A stretch of DNA of 22,435 nt from a virus, in the IMG/VR virus record IMGVR_UViG_3300044626_000761, positions 1 through 22,435 of that record. One strand, given 5' to 3'. The notes beneath the pieces were generated by a model, which did no database searches, was not told the origin of the DNA, and was given only the letters and a program-made list of their open reading frames with translations. Position numbers and translations under genes: made by a program. Each line of letters begins with the position of its first letter. The stretch's first letter is position 1. Below are positions 13,015 through 21,093 of the stretch, one piece after another.

Positions 13015-13100
13015 ACATGACACGCCAAATGTTTAGAAGTCAATATGCATCTTGGTTATTATTCTGGAGGTGCTTATGCAAAAAGTTATTCAATACCTAG
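13011..13100 (+). CDS. 29-codon leader-like small ORF
   Basis: A short frame of 29 residues beginning MNMTRQMFRS and ending in KKLFNT. It has a strong CTGGAGGTGCAACT ribosome-binding site and an ATGA overlap with the exonuclease stop, so it should be translated. Its end overlaps the next gene by 25 nt. The same 11-nt sequence TCTGGAGGTGC precedes both this ATG (12996-13006) and the next gene's ATG (13063-13073). It may be a relic of a small duplication or a coupling leader, and no function is claimed. The sequence WLLFWRCLCKKL is hydrophobic but too short for a firm membrane call. Confidence 0.4.
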   Translation: MNMTRQMFRSQYASWLLFWRCLCKKLFNT

Positions 13101-13749: not shown

Positions 13750-13982
13750 ATTGGAAAAAATTAGAATACGGCAAATGGCCAAAAGGCAAAATTGTACTAC
13801 GGATAGTATCTGACACTGGATATGTAAATTTTGAAATTGTTGAAATTAAAAAAAACAATGTAAGTAATCAAACTTATTTTATTAAGAACAAGGACGGAAT
13901 AAATAAAATAATTAGCATTGATTCTATATTCGATACCGAACCGCATTACATTGAACTTGATAATCTGGAGATGCCGTCATGA
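13746..13982 (+). CDS. Hypothetical protein, 78 aa (paired with the previous gene)
   Basis: A 78-residue, strand-rich protein (MNWKKLEYGKWPKGKIVLRI, then YVNFEIVEIKKNN) overlapping both neighbours by ATGA; AAGGAGAT precedes the ATG. Similar in size, opening and strand order to the product of the preceding gene. The C-terminus is acidic (DTEPHYIELDNLEMPS). No family was recognised. It sits directly before the clearer DnaA-IV-like gene. Confidence 0.62.
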   Translation: MNWKKLEYGKWPKGKIVLRIVSDTGYVNFEIVEIKKNNVSNQTYFIKNKDGINKIISIDSIFDTEPHYIELDNLEMPS

Positions 13983-14416
13983 CACTTAGCGAACAACTGA
14001 AAGAAGAGAGGATAAAACTTTTTGGCATAACGTACAAGCCAAAACAAGAAAAGCTTATTGGCGAAACGCCCGAGATAATGAAAAAATACATATACAAAAA
14101 AAACAGCTTTGACAAAGATCCAGATCTTGCAATAAACAAAATTACAACTTGGCTAGCTCAAGAAAAGCAAGTAGACATCGACGACATTTATTCAAATAAA
14201 AGATACCGTAGTTTAGCAGATGCAAGGCATATTTTGTTTTTCTTACTTTATTTTACTTTGCCAATTACTCAAACTCACATAGGCGAAAAGTTTAATAAGC
14301 ATCCATCTTCAGTTGTGCACTCAATTATCAAAGTCAAATCTTTATTTATCGATTCGCTTGATTTTAAAGCGTTTATTAAGCAATTTGAAAGTTTTTATTT
14401 TGATAGGGTGGCATAA
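13979..14416 (+). CDS. Stand-alone DnaA domain IV-like DNA-binding protein
   Basis: A 145-residue protein. Residues 72-125 match the DnaA C-terminal DNA-binding domain: SNKRYRSLADARHILFFLL corresponds to the 'R...R..ARxIAhYLhR' helix, then PITQTHIGEKFN to 'shxEIGxxFG', then KHPSSVVHSIIKV to the signature '(D)HTTVhHAxxKI'. In DnaA this domain reads the DnaA box. There is no P-loop or AAA+ domain, so it can bind but not act as a DnaA-type initiator alone. It overlaps the previous gene by ATGA and the primase-helicase by one base (TAATG), which links it to replication. Known phage and plasmid relatives act as origin binders or as regulators of DnaA; which applies here is an inference. Confidence 0.78.
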   Translation: MTLSEQLKEERIKLFGITYKPKQEKLIGETPEIMKKYIYKKNSFDKDPDLAINKITTWLAQEKQVDIDDIYSNKRYRSLADARHILFFLLYFTLPITQTHIGEKFNKHPSSVVHSIIKVKSLFIDSLDFKAFIKQFESFYFDRVA

Positions 14417-16578
14417 TGAATATATCAATATTCAAAACGGCAATGGATACAACGCCAGAAGCAAACATATCTTTTTATACTTTCTTAGGTTATGTAAAAG
14501 ACGGCAGGTGGCAAGATCAAGTTTTTGAAGTTCGCAACGGCCAACGTGAAAAGAAAACAATGCCAGCCGTGACACCATCTGGAACGTTCAAGAAGCGCAA
14601 CGCAGATTCAATCGACCAGCATTCGAATATTATAAGTATTGATATTGATATTAAAGACAATGCAGATGCCAATATTGAAGCACTTAAGCAAGATCCTTAT
14701 ACATGGGCGGTTCATCATTCAATCGGCGGTTATGGTTGGGTGGCATATTTCAAGATCGAACCTGAAAAGCACTTACAAGCGTATTACGGCCTTGAAAAGT
14801 ACCTAGCAGACTTTTACAAGGTGGTTGCGGATAAATCTTGTAAAGATGTTTCAAGATTACGATATGTATCTTTTGATCCGCATTTATACCAAAGAGATCA
14901 GGAACCAAAAGCATTCAAAATATATGTTAAAGATGTTGTAAAAGAAGTCGAACGCACGTCAATTATTGCACTTGATGACGATTATCAATACATCATTCAA
15001 CAAATTCAACAAAAGAATATCGATTTAACCGCTGGTGGGTACCACGATTGGCTCCAGATCGCTTTTGCACTTGCAAACGGATTAGGAGAGCAAGGACGCC
15101 AGCTATTCCACGCTGTGAGTTCGCAAAGCCCCAAATATGATGAGTTTCAAACCGATGCGAAGTACAATGAGTGCTTGAAAAGCAAAAACGGTGCGGTAAG
15201 CCTGAACACGTTCTTTTATCTGTGTTCAAAAGCTGGAATCATTACGCAAACTGAAAAGACAAAAACAATTATTGCAGTTGCTCAATATGCTAAAGGTCGT
15301 GACTCGCAATCTGTTGAACAGCAAAAGGCTTCGCACACTAAGGCGTGCGCGGCGCAAGGTTATACAGGTTCTGAAGTGGAATTGATATTCGACAAAACAA
15401 ACGAAGAGGGGTATAAATCAAAAAAAGCGCAAAAAAGTTCTGGCGAAATCGAATCAATCAAAGCCATGTTGAACGTACATAACCTTAAATATAACCTGGT
15501 GACGCAAAGCATGGAAATTGACGGGCGCAACTTTACAGATCGTGAATTTAATACCATCTTTATTCAGTTGCGTGAACAACTTGGTAATACCGTGCAATCT
15601 CAAATTGTAAACAGCATAATCGACAGCGATAACACGCCAAGCTTCAATCCTTTTACCGAATATCTTGAGCAATGCAAGGGCGCTTACACGAGCGGACATA
15701 TTGCAAAGCTTTGTAGATCTATTATTTACAAAGAAAGCAAACACATGTCACCAGCAACGCTTGAACATTACGTAAAAAAATGGCTTCTTGGCATAATTGC
15801 TTCAATGCACGGAATACATTCGGTTACAATCTTGGTTCTTTGCGGTGGTCAAGGCATTGGTAAAACGAACTTCTTTCGAAAGTTACTTCCAGAACCTTTG
15901 CAAAAGTATTATGCGGAATCAAAACTAGATCTTGGCAAAGATGATCTTATTCTTATGTGTAATAAGCTTATAATATGCGATGATGAATTTGGCGGTAAGT
16001 CCAAAAAAGAAGAAAGTTTGCTTAAGGAATTAAGCTCAAAACAAGTTTTTTCGGTTAGGCCACCATATCAAAAACGTAACATCGATATGCAAAGATATGC
16101 CGTGCTTTGTGGCACGTCAAATGATTCGCAACTGCTTAATGACTTGACCGGGAACCGCAGAATCATTCCGATTGATATCACTGCAATTAATTGGGATCTT
16201 TATAACGAAGTTGACAAAGATATGTTATTTGCAGAGCTTTATAATGAGTATGTATTGTGTGGCAAAGAATGGCAATTGAACAAAGAAGAAATAAGCATTC
16301 TTAATGATTTTACATACGCAAATAAGTCTGTTTGTGTTGAAGAGGAACTCCTTTTGCAATACTTCAAAGAACCAAATGCAAAGTATTCAGAATGGCTAAC
16401 CAATACCCAAATTTTAAACATCATCAGCCAAGATACAACATTAAGATTGACGCCAAAAAAGCTTGGTCAAGTGTTGAGTAATTACGGTTATGTGAAAGAA
16501 CACAAAGTAATCAATGGTAAAACTTCTGGATGCTGGTTTGTGGCAAAAAGAAGCGAACCGCTTGAAAAATTTGCTTAA
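14416..16578 (+). CDS. Primase-helicase: BT4734/VirE_N + PriCT-like + VirE helicase
   Basis: A 720-residue replication protein. Residues 1-175 resemble the BT4734/VirE N-terminal domain common in Bacteroidota, which has a primase-polymerase-like fold; the acidic strand NIISIDIDIKD has D76 and D78, and RLRYVSFDP is near residue 147. Residues about 200-275 (GGYHDWLQIAFALANGLGEQG, then SSQSPKYDEF) match a PriCT-2-like linker domain. The C-terminal half is a VirE-type P-loop helicase: GGQGIGKT at 477-484, LIICDDEF at 518-525, and CGTSND plus LTGNRRIIPIDI at 565-588. A C-terminal winged-helix-like tail follows. It should prime and unwind DNA at the phage fork. It starts by TAATG coupling to the DnaA-IV-like gene. 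This domain set supports a Bacteroidota host. Confidence 0.9.
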   Translation: MNISIFKTAMDTTPEANISFYTFLGYVKDGRWQDQVFEVRNGQREKKTMPAVTPSGTFKKRNADSIDQHSNIISIDIDIKDNADANIEALKQDPYTWAVHHSIGGYGWVAYFKIEPEKHLQAYYGLEKYLADFYKVVADKSCKDVSRLRYVSFDPHLYQRDQEPKAFKIYVKDVVKEVERTSIIALDDDYQYIIQQIQQKNIDLTAGGYHDWLQIAFALANGLGEQGRQLFHAVSSQSPKYDEFQTDAKYNECLKSKNGAVSLNTFFYLCSKAGIITQTEKTKTIIAVAQYAKGRDSQSVEQQKASHTKACAAQGYTGSEVELIFDKTNEEGYKSKKAQKSSGEIESIKAMLNVHNLKYNLVTQSMEIDGRNFTDREFNTIFIQLREQLGNTVQSQIVNSIIDSDNTPSFNPFTEYLEQCKGAYTSGHIAKLCRSIIYKESKHMSPATLEHYVKKWLLGIIASMHGIHSVTILVLCGGQGIGKTNFFRKLLPEPLQKYYAESKLDLGKDDLILMCNKLIICDDEFGGKSKKEESLLKELSSKQVFSVRPPYQKRNIDMQRYAVLCGTSNDSQLLNDLTGNRRIIPIDITAINWDLYNEVDKDMLFAELYNEYVLCGKEWQLNKEEISILNDFTYANKSVCVEEELLLQYFKEPNAKYSEWLTNTQILNIISQDTTLRLTPKKLGQVLSNYGYVKEHKVINGKTSGCWFVAKRSEPLEKFA

Positions 16579-16604
16579 GCATTGACAATAAAGACACTTA
16601 CAAG

Positions 16605-16734
16605 TATTACAGATAAACAGATAAACAGATGAAAAACACGTTCCCATATATATATATAAATATGTATGTGTGTATATATATAATAATAATAATATTATAC
16701 TTATTTACTTACTTTTATCTGTTTATCTGTAATA
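16605..16734 (+). repeat. 21-bp perfect inverted repeat built of tandem TTATCTGT units
   Basis: Left arm 16605-16625 is the exact reverse complement of right arm 16714-16734, 88 bp apart. Each arm contains two tandem 8-mers: ACAGATAA on the left (16609-16624, with a third variant ACAGATGA at 16625-16632) and TTATCTGT on the right (16715-16730). The space between is almost pure A/T (16646-16698: alternating TA, then TAA repeats). Confidence 0.93.
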
Positions 16735-16789
16735 ACTTTATTAACTTCTTGAATTTTAAATAACTTAAATATTACAGATCGTGCAAAAC

Positions 16790-16817
16790 ATCTGTAATAA
16801 TCTGTAATATCTGTAAT
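16790..16817 (+). repeat. Three tandem ATCTGTAAT repeats before helicase start
   Basis: ATCTGTAAT at 16790-16798, 16800-16808 and 16809-16817, ending 3 nt before the helicase ATG. Further copies lie at 16725-16733 (same strand) and, inverted, at 16606-16614 and 16771-16779. There is no Shine-Dalgarno site for the helicase, so protein bound here, or the repeat RNA, could control its expression. Confidence 0.88.
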
Positions 16818-16820
16818 AAT

Positions 16821-18227
16821 ATGAATCTAAGAAATTACCAAATTGAAGCAATCCAGAAACTTCGCAATGCAATTGCAAGCGGTCACAAGAAGGTTATTCT
16901 TTGCGCTCCGACTGGAGCGGGCAAAACGGTTATCTTTTCAGAGATGTGCAGAAGTGCAATTGAAAAGGGCAAGACAGTGATGATCATTACTGACCGTGTC
17001 GAGTTGCTTACACAATCTGGAGGGGCGTTAAACCGCCTTAAAATACTTCCTGAATACATCCAAGCCTTTACAACGCACTTGAATAGATATTCGATTTACG
17101 TTGCAATGGTTGAAACAATCTACAGACGCTTAAGCCAGCCTGAATATTTGCAACTTTTCAAGCGTCTGGATCTGATTATTTTTGATGAGGCTCACAAGCA
17201 AACGTTCACAAAGCTTATGCCGTTCGTGAATTCGAATGCAGTTGTAATTGGCGCAACGGCTACACCATACCGCCAAGGCAATCAAGAAAGCTTGGACAAG
17301 CATTATACCGACATTGTAAACGTTGTGGACGTGCAAGACTTGATAGAGCAAGGCTATTTAGCCAAGCCTTCTTACTTTGGTGTTCAAGTTGATTTGCAAG
17401 GCATAAAGACTGTTGCTGGTGACTACGATCCTGCTAGCCTTTCGGCTATGTACAGCGCCTCACAAATTTACAAGGGCGTTTTGCAAAATTACAAGCGGTT
17501 AGCAAACGGTAAAAAAACTTTGGTGTTTTGTTCGAACATTGCAAGCTCCAAAGAGCTTTGCGCAGAATTCACAGCACACGGCGTGCCCATAATGCACGTG
17601 GACGCCTCTACAAGCCCCGTAGAACGACGAAACGCACTCGACTGGTATAAACTGACACCCGACGCCGTTTTGTCAAACGTGGGGCTTTTTACAACGGGTT
17701 TTGATGAACCTACAACAGAATGCATAATTCTTTACCGGGCTACGAAAAGCGTGCCCTTGTATTTGCAGATGTGCGGGCGTGGTTCCAGAACGTCGGCTGG
17801 CAAAGACGGATTCATGATTCTTGACTTTGGTAACAACGTTTTGACGCATGGTTTCTGGGATGATCCAAGGGAATGGACTTTAAAAAAGCAAGAAAAGAAA
17901 GCTGGTGGCGTGGCACCCGTCAAGTTATGCAAAGATTGCGGAGCTTTGATTCCGAGCGTTGCACGGGCGTGCGTGTTTTGCGGTTGTGTGATACCGAAGA
18001 CAGAGCGGGAAGTGATTGCGGAATTACAGGAACTTACAAGAAGCGAAGCGTTGCAAATGGCACGGGGTGGAGATGTGGAAAGCTGGGTATTACTAGCAAA
18101 AGCAAAAAAAATTAATTCGATTTGGGTAGTTAAGAGTTTATGTCGTAACTTGCAAGAGGCGAAACAATTTACAGATTTAATGGGCTATGCAAGCGGGTGG
18201 CTCTGGATGCACTGGAGAAAGAAGTGA
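16821..18227 (+). CDS. SF2 DEAH-box helicase with C-terminal zinc ribbon
   Basis: A 468-residue superfamily 2 helicase. Q/Walker A region: LRNYQIEAIQKL, then APTGAGKT at 29-36. DEAH box at 122-125, GATATP at 144-149, motif VI QMCGRGSR at 316-323 with arginine finger candidates R320 and R323. After the core, C370/C373 and C384/C387 form a four-cysteine zinc ribbon, followed by a helical tail. Such phage helicases (UvsW- or RadD-like layout) remodel branched DNA during replication and recombination. The ATG at 16821 has no Shine-Dalgarno site but abuts the ATCTGTAAT repeats. The stop codon overlaps the GTG start of the next gene. The helicase call is secure; its exact substrate is not. Confidence 0.93.
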   Translation: MNLRNYQIEAIQKLRNAIASGHKKVILCAPTGAGKTVIFSEMCRSAIEKGKTVMIITDRVELLTQSGGALNRLKILPEYIQAFTTHLNRYSIYVAMVETIYRRLSQPEYLQLFKRLDLIIFDEAHKQTFTKLMPFVNSNAVVIGATATPYRQGNQESLDKHYTDIVNVVDVQDLIEQGYLAKPSYFGVQVDLQGIKTVAGDYDPASLSAMYSASQIYKGVLQNYKRLANGKKTLVFCSNIASSKELCAEFTAHGVPIMHVDASTSPVERRNALDWYKLTPDAVLSNVGLFTTGFDEPTTECIILYRATKSVPLYLQMCGRGSRTSAGKDGFMILDFGNNVLTHGFWDDPREWTLKKQEKKAGGVAPVKLCKDCGALIPSVARACVFCGCVIPKTEREVIAELQELTRSEALQMARGGDVESWVLLAKAKKINSIWVVKSLCRNLQEAKQFTDLMGYASGWLWMHWRKK

Positions 18228-19486
18228 TCGTTATAAGAGAAGATTTTAAGAAGCTTATTCCTGCTTTGACTGGAGAAGAGTACAAGCAACTGGAAGCGAA
18301 TATTTTAAGCGAAGGGATTCGAGATCCTTTGGTGGTTTGGAATGGTTATTTGGTGGACGGTCACAACCGCTACGCCATTGCAAACAAATACAGTTTGGAA
18401 TATAAGACGGTAAGCAAAGAATTCAAGGACGGAAATGAAGCCAAACTCTGGATGATCTTGAATCAGTTTGGTAGGCGTAATTTGAACGGATACCAAAGAA
18501 GCGTTTTAGCTTTGCAACTTGAAAACGTGTTTCAAGAAAAGGCGAAGGAAAACCAAGGTAAAAGAACAGACATTAAGCAGATATCTGCGGAAAGTAATCC
18601 TATTGAAACACGAAAAGAACTTGCAAAAGTTGCCAATGTTTCACACGATACAATTGCAAAAGTAAAAGTGATCCAATCCGTTGCAACTCCAGAAGTTAAA
18701 GCGCAACTAAGTACGGGCGTAATAAGTATCAACCAAGCATATCAAGAAATAAAGAAAGAAGAGAAAGAACAACTCAAAACACAAAAAGCGATTGAGATCA
18801 TTGAAAAGGTATACGAAAGTAACTGCAATATTTATCATGGCGATTGCCTTGAATACATCAAAACAATTGCGGATAAAAGTATTGATTGCTTGATTACGGA
18901 TCCACCGTACGGGGTTGACATCCAATTTGGTGCGTATGATAATCAGTTAAGCAGAAAGATTGCAAATGATGAAAACAGTCAGGATGCTTTGTGTTTACTT
19001 GACAAGATGTTGATTGAAGTCAAATGCAAACTTAAAGACAATGCGCATCTTTATATTTTTTGCAATTGGAAAATATATCCAGACTTCAGTAAAATAATAA
19101 GCAATCACTTTCAAATAAAAAACGTGATTATCTGGGATAAGTTATTCATGGGCATGGGTGATCTTAAGGGCAATTATTCAAGTAGCTATGAAATGATTAT
19201 TTTTGCTGGTGGCAACAGGGAATTTTTGAACAGGCCTAAAAATATTATACAATGCAGATTCAATGATGAAAGATTCCACAACACACAAAAGCCAATTGAT
19301 TTGATTAAGCAATTAATTGAAAACAGTACGGATGTAAACGAATTAGTTTTTGATCCTTTTTTGGGGTCGGGTTCGACCGTGGTTGCTTCAAAGCAATTAA
19401 AAAGGAATTACATTGGTTGCGAGATTGATGAGCAAAATTATAAGATCACATTAAAAAGAATTCAGGATCTTGGCAATGACTTATAA
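18224..19486 (+). CDS. ParB-like domain fused to beta-class DNA methyltransferase
   Basis: A 420-residue fusion. The GTG at 18224 is chosen: it forms a GTGA overlap with the helicase stop and follows GGAGAAAGAA, while the upstream in-frame GTG at 18197 has no site. Residues 1-110 are a ParB/sulfiredoxin-like domain: LEANILSEGIRDPLVVWNG, then DGHNRY at 45-50. Residues about 125-150 form a helix-turn-helix (TRKELAKVANVSHDTIAKVK). The C-terminal part is an N6-adenine/N4-cytosine methyltransferase: DPPY at 226-229 before DPFLGSGST at 377-385, so the catalytic motif precedes the SAM motif (beta class). The target is unknown. No matching restriction enzyme was identified, so it likely protects phage DNA from host restriction. 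ParB-methyltransferase fusions are known from mobile elements. Confidence 0.9.
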   Translation: MIVIREDFKKLIPALTGEEYKQLEANILSEGIRDPLVVWNGYLVDGHNRYAIANKYSLEYKTVSKEFKDGNEAKLWMILNQFGRRNLNGYQRSVLALQLENVFQEKAKENQGKRTDIKQISAESNPIETRKELAKVANVSHDTIAKVKVIQSVATPEVKAQLSTGVISINQAYQEIKKEEKEQLKTQKAIEIIEKVYESNCNIYHGDCLEYIKTIADKSIDCLITDPPYGVDIQFGAYDNQLSRKIANDENSQDALCLLDKMLIEVKCKLKDNAHLYIFCNWKIYPDFSKIISNHFQIKNVIIWDKLFMGMGDLKGNYSSSYEMIIFAGGNREFLNRPKNIIQCRFNDERFHNTQKPIDLIKQLIENSTDVNELVFDPFLGSGSTVVASKQLKRNYIGCEIDEQNYKITLKRIQDLGNDL

Positions 19487-20018
19487 TGAATATCGAAGTT
19501 ACTCAGACAAAAGCCTACCAGAAGCAAAGAAGCATATTGCAAATTTTATAAAAGAAAAATTAAACAACCGTGACTTAACTGAATACGTTGTTGAAACAAG
19601 CTTTTATCAGGATACAACAGAATCCATTGATTTGCATTTTAAGTTGCCAAATATAAAAGTTTCTCACAGAGCAAGAAAAAAAGATGGCAATATTCGTGAT
19701 ATCACAATTAAAACAAAAAGTATATACGATAAGCCTTGTGAGATTGACAAATTAATTGAATTGTCAAAATCAAATAAAGATCCATGGTTTTATTTTTATT
19801 GTTATTTTGACGATGAAACAAACAAGATTACAAGATACATAATTTATGATTTGGGAAAATTAATACAAACCAAAGAATTTCAAGACAAATCAATATTTGA
19901 ATATTCAGCCGACAAAATAAATACAAAAGATGGCGGTAGTCATTTCAATTGCATAACCGTGCAAAAGCTTATTGATATGGATTTAATATGCGTAGACTGT
20001 TCAAAATACTATGAATGA
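19476..20018 (+). CDS. Unassigned protein between two methyltransferases
   Basis: A 180-residue protein. The ATG at 19476 follows AGGATCT and overlaps the methyltransferase gene by 11 nt. The N-terminus is helical (YSDKSLPEAKKHIANFIKEKL), then strands carry ESIDLHFKLP (E50, D52) and RDITIKTKS (D75, K79), then aromatic strands WFYFYCYFD and a helix. The acidic-then-lysine layout recalls PD-(D/E)XK nucleases, but the usual (D/E)-x-K is replaced by T-I-K, so I do not claim a nuclease. No other family was recognised. Placed between two methyltransferases, it may be a restriction-like partner, an anti-restriction factor, or unrelated. It overlaps the next gene by 8 nt. Confidence 0.6.
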   Translation: MTYNEYRSYSDKSLPEAKKHIANFIKEKLNNRDLTEYVVETSFYQDTTESIDLHFKLPNIKVSHRARKKDGNIRDITIKTKSIYDKPCEIDKLIELSKSNKDPWFYFYCYFDDETNKITRYIIYDLGKLIQTKEFQDKSIFEYSADKINTKDGGSHFNCITVQKLIDMDLICVDCSKYYE

Positions 20019-20031
20019 ATCCCAACTGCAA
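20011..20031 (+). repeat. 21-nt start-codon repeat, copy 1 (copy 2 at 21086-21106)
   Basis: Both copies read ATGAATGAATCNCAACTGCAA, differing only at the 12th base (C in copy 1, A in copy 2). Both encode MNESQLQ as the start of otherwise unrelated proteins, 1075 bp apart. Confidence 0.85.
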
Positions 20032-21093
20032 AAGAAAGAGTACCGTCTTGAATGTGGCAACAGCAAAGACTTGCTAAAAAAAATAGAATCAAATTCGATA
20101 GACAGCATAGTCACCGACCCGCCCTATGAACTTGGGTTCATGGGTAAAAAATGGGATAACACAGGCATTGCTTATGATGTAGAATTATGGGCGGAATGTT
20201 TACGAGTGCTAAAGCACGGGGGGCATCTATTAGCGTTTTCAGGTTCTAGAACATACCATAGAATGGCCGTTGCAATTGAAGATGCTGGCTTTGATATTCG
20301 AGACCAGATACAATGGGTTTACGGCTCTGGGTTTCCTAAGAGTCATAATATAAGCAAGGCAATAGATAAGATGGAAGGGGTGGAATCAGCAAAAGAATGG
20401 GACGGCTGGGGGACTGCATTAAAGCCTGCTCATGAGCCTATTTGCGTTGCAAGAAAACCATTGATAGGAACGGTAGTAGAAAATGTTTTGCAGTATGGAA
20501 CAGGCGGGATTAATGTGGACGGGTGCAGGGTTGGAAGTGAAGAAATAAAAACCAACGGAGGTGATAAATTTCCTGCGATTTATGGGAAATACAAAACGGC
20601 AAAAGAAAGCACGCATAAAGGCCGTTGGCCTGCTAACTTTATTCATGATGGTAGTGAAGAGGTTTTACAGGGGTTTCCAAGTGATGAAAAGCAAAGCGCA
20701 TCCCGTTTCTTCTATTGTGCAAAAGCAAGTAAGAAGGATAGGGACGAGGGTTGCGAGGGATTTGAGGAAAGGGAAGCGAGGTTAACCAATTGGAGCGGTG
20801 ACGGAATGCCAATAAGACAAGACGGAACAGAAAGGAAACAACCTATTGCCCGCAACCACCACCCAACAGTTAAGCCGACAAACCTTATGCAATATCTTTG
20901 CAGATTAGTAACACCACCAAACGGAACTATTTTAGACCCGTTTCTTGGTTCGGGTTCCACAGGCAAGGCGGCAATTTATGAAAGATATAATTTTATAGGG
21001 TTTGACTTAAATAGTGAGTATATTGACATTGCAAAAGCAAGAATAGAATTTGCAATAAAGAATAAAAACAATACATTATTTGATCATGAATGA
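20011..21093 (+). CDS. Phage DNA methyltransferase (beta class, N6A/N4C)
   Basis: A 360-residue methyltransferase of a type common in phages. DPPY is at residues 36-39, near the N-terminus; HEPICVARKPL, GGINVDGCRV and GRWPANFIHD fill the middle; NHHPTVKP then leads to DPFLGSGST at 309-317. The catalytic motif precedes the SAM motif, again beta class. Target unknown. The gene body, especially about 20380-20830, uses GGG, AGG and GAG codons more than its neighbours, and its first 21 nt recur with one mismatch at the start of the next gene (21086). Both suggest that it was gained as a separate cassette. Overlaps of 8 nt on both sides keep it in the operon. Confidence 0.92.
   Translation: MNESQLQKKEYRLECGNSKDLLKKIESNSIDSIVTDPPYELGFMGKKWDNTGIAYDVELWAECLRVLKHGGHLLAFSGSRTYHRMAVAIEDAGFDIRDQIQWVYGSGFPKSHNISKAIDKMEGVESAKEWDGWGTALKPAHEPICVARKPLIGTVVENVLQYGTGGINVDGCRVGSEEIKTNGGDKFPAIYGKYKTAKESTHKGRWPANFIHDGSEEVLQGFPSDEKQSASRFFYCAKASKKDRDEGCEGFEEREARLTNWSGDGMPIRQDGTERKQPIARNHHPTVKPTNLMQYLCRLVTPPNGTILDPFLGSGSTGKAAIYERYNFIGFDLNSEYIDIAKARIEFAIKNKNNTLFDHE

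Follow-up and report, generated by a model that had tools for sequence, protein, structure and literature searches.

The window, i.e. the whole stretch of 22,435 nt that was analysed here, is an IMG/VR virus fragment and contains a long tape-measure-like ORF of 1206 aa; the cultured relative mumin6-4, in which terminase and portal genes are present, is a full phage. On the plus strand, a gene for a stand-alone DnaA domain IV-like protein (13979 to 14416; Bac_DnaA_C, E = 1.5e-10) is followed by the gene of a 720 aa primase-helicase (14416 to 16578), the proposed initiator, and by a Superfamily 2 (ResIII-type) helicase gene (16821 to 18227; Pfam ResIII, E = 4.7e-23). In a preliminary description of this DNA the products encoded at 13076 and 13979 were both called DnaA-IV-like; the assignment holds for the latter, whereas the 13076 product had no match in Pfam or PHROGs. 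Additionally, two N6/N4 DNA methyltransferase genes are located at 18197 to 19486 and 20011 to 21093, the first of them with a ParB-like N-terminal part, and a glycosyltransferase family 2-like gene (796 to 1470) lies among the structural genes.

The primase-helicase comprises a BT4734-like (VirE-N) primase domain, a PriCT-2 domain, a VapE/D5-like helicase domain and a C-terminal winged helix, with Pfam matches to VapE-like (E = 6.7e-32), BT4734-like_N (E = 2.3e-15) and PriCT_2 (E = 1.5e-12). Its best PDB match was PriRep1 with dsDNA (7pds; profile E = 1.3e-17, fold E = 8.5e-17), and by this match and its winged helix it is homologous to the Rep/PriRep helicases with a predicted C-terminal DNA-binding domain. 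In the AlphaFold2 model (mean pLDDT 84.6), in which the placement of the domains is uncertain because the pTM is 0.49, the winged helix spans residues 655-711 (codons 16378 to 16548, plus strand) with a recognition helix at 680-689, a wing turn at 700-701 and a local pLDDT of about 79-89.

Immediately 3′ of the primase-helicase gene, the hexamer ATCTGT occurs nine times within 206 bp (16609 to 16814), compared to nine times in the remaining 22 kb (18 in the window) and to about 0.1 copies expected in a span of this length (shuffled rate 10.7 per 22.4 kb). The first word lies 31 bp past the stop codon at 16578 and the last one ends 6 bases ahead of the helicase start codon (ATG, 16821). Three copies on the minus strand (16609 to 16614, extended as ATCTGTAATA; 16617 to 16622; 16625 to 16630) are followed by two on the plus strand (16717 to 16722; 16725 to 16730, again ATCTGTAATA), a lone inverted copy on the minus strand (16774 to 16779, within TATTACAGAT at 16770 to 16779) and three further plus-strand copies, all ATCTGTAATA (16790 to 16795, 16800 to 16805 and 16809 to 16814, the latter adjoining the helicase start codon). 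The nine-base form ATCTGTAAT is present six times in the window, every copy within 16606 to 16817. In the near-identical locus L069 the best array 7-mer, with 6 copies in both orientations, outnumbered the best of 100 dinucleotide shuffles and of each of the other 110 windows of 400 bp in that locus. Two 21-nt arms, TATTACAGATAAACAGATAAA at 16605 to 16625 and TTTATCTGTTTATCTGTAATA at 16714 to 16734 (plus-strand coordinates), are perfect inverted copies of each other (100% complementary) and are separated by 88 nt. Both the perfect arms and the additional copies to their right had been pointed out in the preliminary description and were recovered here. Between the right arm and the lone inverted copy lies a spacer element (16735 to 16769), and similar spacers occupy the same place in many relatives.

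The arms enclose an A/T-rich core with an alternating TG/TA tract (16631 to 16713), which is proposed to be the melting region. The least stable 80 bp of the entire window was found at 16647 to 16726, with a mean nearest-neighbour energy of -0.93 compared to -1.05 for the next best segment and a median of -1.29. The core had earlier been described as about 50 bp of nearly pure A/T; its A/T-richness was confirmed, but this length is loose, as the strictly A/T run comprises only 27 bp (16673 to 16699) inside a core that also holds the alternating TG/TA. Among 24 representative loci, the core is the least stable 80 bp of its locus in 15. Alternating purine-pyrimidine tracts of (TG)n beside (TA)n are common in the cores (L078, L093, L110, L119, L132, L034 and others), and arrays sharing such tracts carry unrelated words.

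Related loci were gathered with primase, helicase and DnaA-IV protein searches and a primase alignment search, which yielded about 90 primase loci in 28 clusters; 80 of 548 confirmed relatives were kept for analysis. The cultured relatives are tailed phages of Flavobacteriia. In almost all relatives the same plan was found 3′ of the primase: a left set of words on one strand, an A/T core often with (TG)n and (TA)n, a right set on the other strand, and then a spacer, a single inverted copy and further copies. Absence of the repeats from close relatives had been named as an argument against an origin; all close relatives keep the array, and it lies directly 3′ of the primase-helicase in these, in the window and in most distant relatives. 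The word itself changes: across about 25 relatives the layout is kept and the word is altered in all copies together, the words including ATCTGTAAT, CTATAATA, TTGACAAC, TTACTAC, TTACCAC, GTGACTAT, GTGACTAC, TAACCACC, TACAACC, TTACAAC and others. Within 400 bp at the primase 3′ end, most of the 29 representatives examined have a 7-mer that is repeated 5 to 10 times, usually in both orientations, which is more than in shuffled sequences and in nearly every other window of the same locus. By this count, L048, L101 and L132 were weak and no array was detected beside the primase in phi46:1 and L051; in phi46:1 no convincing array was found elsewhere in the phage either. The count misses arrays with degenerate words, and those of L101 and L132 are visible by eye. 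The same plan also follows the VapE-type gene in the Streptococcus thermophilus phage SW30, the Streptococcus satellite Javan339 and the Flavobacterium phage pippi8-1, and it was not seen after the VapE-type gene of Leuconostoc Ln-7 or of phi38:2.

The IHF-like consensus WATCARNNNNTTR occurs with 12 perfect matches over 30 regions (1.3 expected; the regions are related), and perfect copies lie in or near the spacer after the primase stop in several relatives (L086, L092, L119, L054 and L055). It is absent from the window, and because of this and of the relatedness of the regions it is regarded as a lead only. Moreover, the spacer motif AAACCCTTG is common to the streptococcal satellite Javan339 (L184) and the Bacteroidota phage contig L034, hinting at an element that may be shared across phyla.

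A perfect 21-bp inverted repeat could also be expected of a packaging (cos/pac) site or of a small mobile element with terminal inverted repeats, and in mumin6-4 and pippi8-1 terS follows at a distance of about 1 kb. Either reading is extremely improbable given that the position is fixed 3′ of the primase-helicase and is the same in nearly all relatives; with regard to a mobile element, no empty sites were seen between otherwise similar loci, and the words change in concert, unlike those of a transposing element. In mumin6-4 (L050; MN812223.1) a nuclease gene with similarity to PF10544 (6163 to 6726) splits the array: the primase-helicase stop and the first two words lie before it and the remaining array after it, as if the gene had been inserted into the origin.

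The gene that follows the array differs among relatives and may encode a helicase, a VRR-NUC nuclease or a hypothetical protein; L050, L055, SW30 and pippi8-1 have neighbours other than the SF2 helicase. Because the gene on this side varies, the array goes with the primase-helicase. This bears on the possibility of an operator array at which a repressor, possibly the primase-helicase itself, controls transcription of the downstream helicase gene. Phages commonly carry tandem operators, the last word of the array lies just ahead of the helicase ATG, and autoregulation would be compatible with an origin. Still, an operator as the function of the array appears quite improbable, since the gene before it is of the VapE primase-helicase type while the one after it varies, repression needs no opposed sets around a melting minimum, and in several relatives one copy of the word falls within the primase coding end.

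The preliminary description had suggested that the boxes are read by the DnaA-IV-like proteins of the phage. Of 20 records of the phage group, 17 have a stand-alone DnaA_C-like gene, and the clear DnaA domain IV match of the 13979 product would fit an origin of this kind. The comparison of relatives does not support it: the contigs of L078, L083, L086 and L091 encode almost identical DnaA-IV proteins, and the words are TTGACAAC in L078 and L083, TTACTACA in L086 and TTACCACA in L091, so that the word does not follow this protein. In the pair L083 and L091, even 100% identical DnaA-IV proteins accompany different words. Neither the L034 contig (40 kb, with a ten-copy array) nor the L027 contig gave a DnaA_C match; the array of the window contains no exact DnaA box (TTWTNCACA), and DnaA box-like sites occur in the window at chance level. 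An origin with boxes read by the DnaA-IV-like protein is thus regarded as very unlikely, and the protein may act at the origin by another route. The cumulative GC skew, for which a switch at the array had been envisaged, showed no clear one there; on ten contigs or genomes the skew mostly tracks gene direction, again with no clean switch at the array, and it is uninformative, speaking neither for nor against origin function and binding.

The word was found to covary with the C-terminal winged helix of the primase-helicase. For pairs of relatives with a core identity of at least 75%, which are not independent of each other, the mean identity of the winged helix is 0.86 for matching words (n = 66 pairs) and 0.65 for different ones (n = 15), while in the same pairs the identity of the downstream helicase is 0.90 and 0.89, respectively. 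The partial correlation between word and winged helix given the core is 0.37 (reached in 0 of 500 permutations), that between word and helicase given the core is 0.14, and that between word and primase core given the winged helix is 0.30. Between L101 and L133, the identity of the primase-helicases is 97-100% over residues 1-300 and 48% in the winged helix. Among close relatives, the word is TACTAC at all eight positions in L086, L087 and L092, and at each of these positions L091 carries TACCAC instead, one of the copies falling inside the primase coding end; within residues 655-711, two substitutions set L091 apart from both L086 and L092, namely T to S at 674 and P to S at 703, and at 657, 696 and 711 it differs from just one of the two. 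These sequence comparisons make the C-terminal winged helix of the VapE-type primase-helicase the likely reader of the word.

Linkage may explain part of the covariation because the array adjoins the winged helix; being neighbours, the two could covary by recombination alone, and core identity correlates with the word too. It is therefore conceivable that an origin of the same layout is read by the downstream SF2 helicase or some other phage protein and that the divergence of the winged helix reflects linkage. This is considered unlikely: the helicase, which in most relatives is as adjacent to the array as the winged helix is, hardly follows the word. Moreover, SaPI Rep uses its C-terminal domain to recognise the iterons immediately downstream of its own gene, and the C-terminal domain of SCCmec Cch2 binds its repeats in vitro (PMC7581432), which argues for a C-terminal domain as the reader here. 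A further reading of the covariation, put forward tentatively and more doubtful than the reading role of the domain, is that winged helix and iteron array form a specificity cassette that is diversified under selection, so that close relatives with the same machinery would have mutually blind origins. One driver of such diversification could be escape from satellites or from rival phages that exploit the origin or titrate it, and specificity would then reside in residues 674 and 703, whose exchanges accompany the change of all eight copies.

Iteron plasmid origins combine short repeats in tandem with an adjacent A/T-rich melting region; they have initiators of other folds and DnaA boxes. The array described here has the tandem repeats and the A/T-rich melting region in common with them and differs by its lack of a DnaA box. 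Closer likeness was found to the origins of SaPI/PICI elements (PMC6092414, PMC7581432), in which the array follows the rep or pri-rep gene immediately on its 3′ side, two iteron arrays flank a melting core and the initiator, related to PriRep1 as is the present one (7pds, E about 1e-17), carries a C-terminal DNA-binding domain. The present array differs from these in its occurrence in phages of another phylum, Bacteroidota, some of which are cultured tailed phages of full size rather than satellites, in the BT4734-like primase domain of the initiator, in its extra inverted copy and semi-conserved spacer, and in that it begins inside the initiator gene in some relatives. At the putative origin of SCCmec Cch2 the C-terminal domain of a helicase binds short direct repeats directly downstream of the operon, but only three 5-nt iterons are present, without described opposed arrays around a core (PMC7581432). 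Among the papers searched, none dealt with origins of Bacteroidota phages with VirE-type primases.

Taken together, 16605 to 16814 is probably the replication origin of a Bacteroidota tailed phage, with iterons bound by the winged helix of the primase-helicase encoded upstream, and it is best read as a Rep-adjacent iteron origin of the SaPI/PICI-like type. The sequences that argue for this are the array and its layout, the melting minimum, the layout kept in close and most distant relatives under concerted change of the word, the covariation of word and winged helix, the homology to PriRep1 and the match to known Rep-adjacent origins; the earlier proposal of a candidate origin with iterons beside an easily melted stretch is thereby strengthened. 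We infer the following course of initiation. The nine ATCTGT iterons, in two opposed sets around the easily melted core, would be bound by the winged helix of the 14416 product, and the helicase domain of the primase-helicase would assemble at them. The A/T core would then open and the helicase would be loaded, and the fused BT4734-type primase domain would prime synthesis.

The locus provides candidates for the origin, the initiator and the reading domain in a large group of Bacteroidota phages for which no described origin was found, and it would extend to full-size phages a layout that has been reported as confined to phage satellites. Natural pairs of word and winged helix are numerous, and in one case all copies of the word differ by a single base while the winged helices show few substitutions, so that the specificity code by which VapE-type initiators would read their words becomes directly testable.
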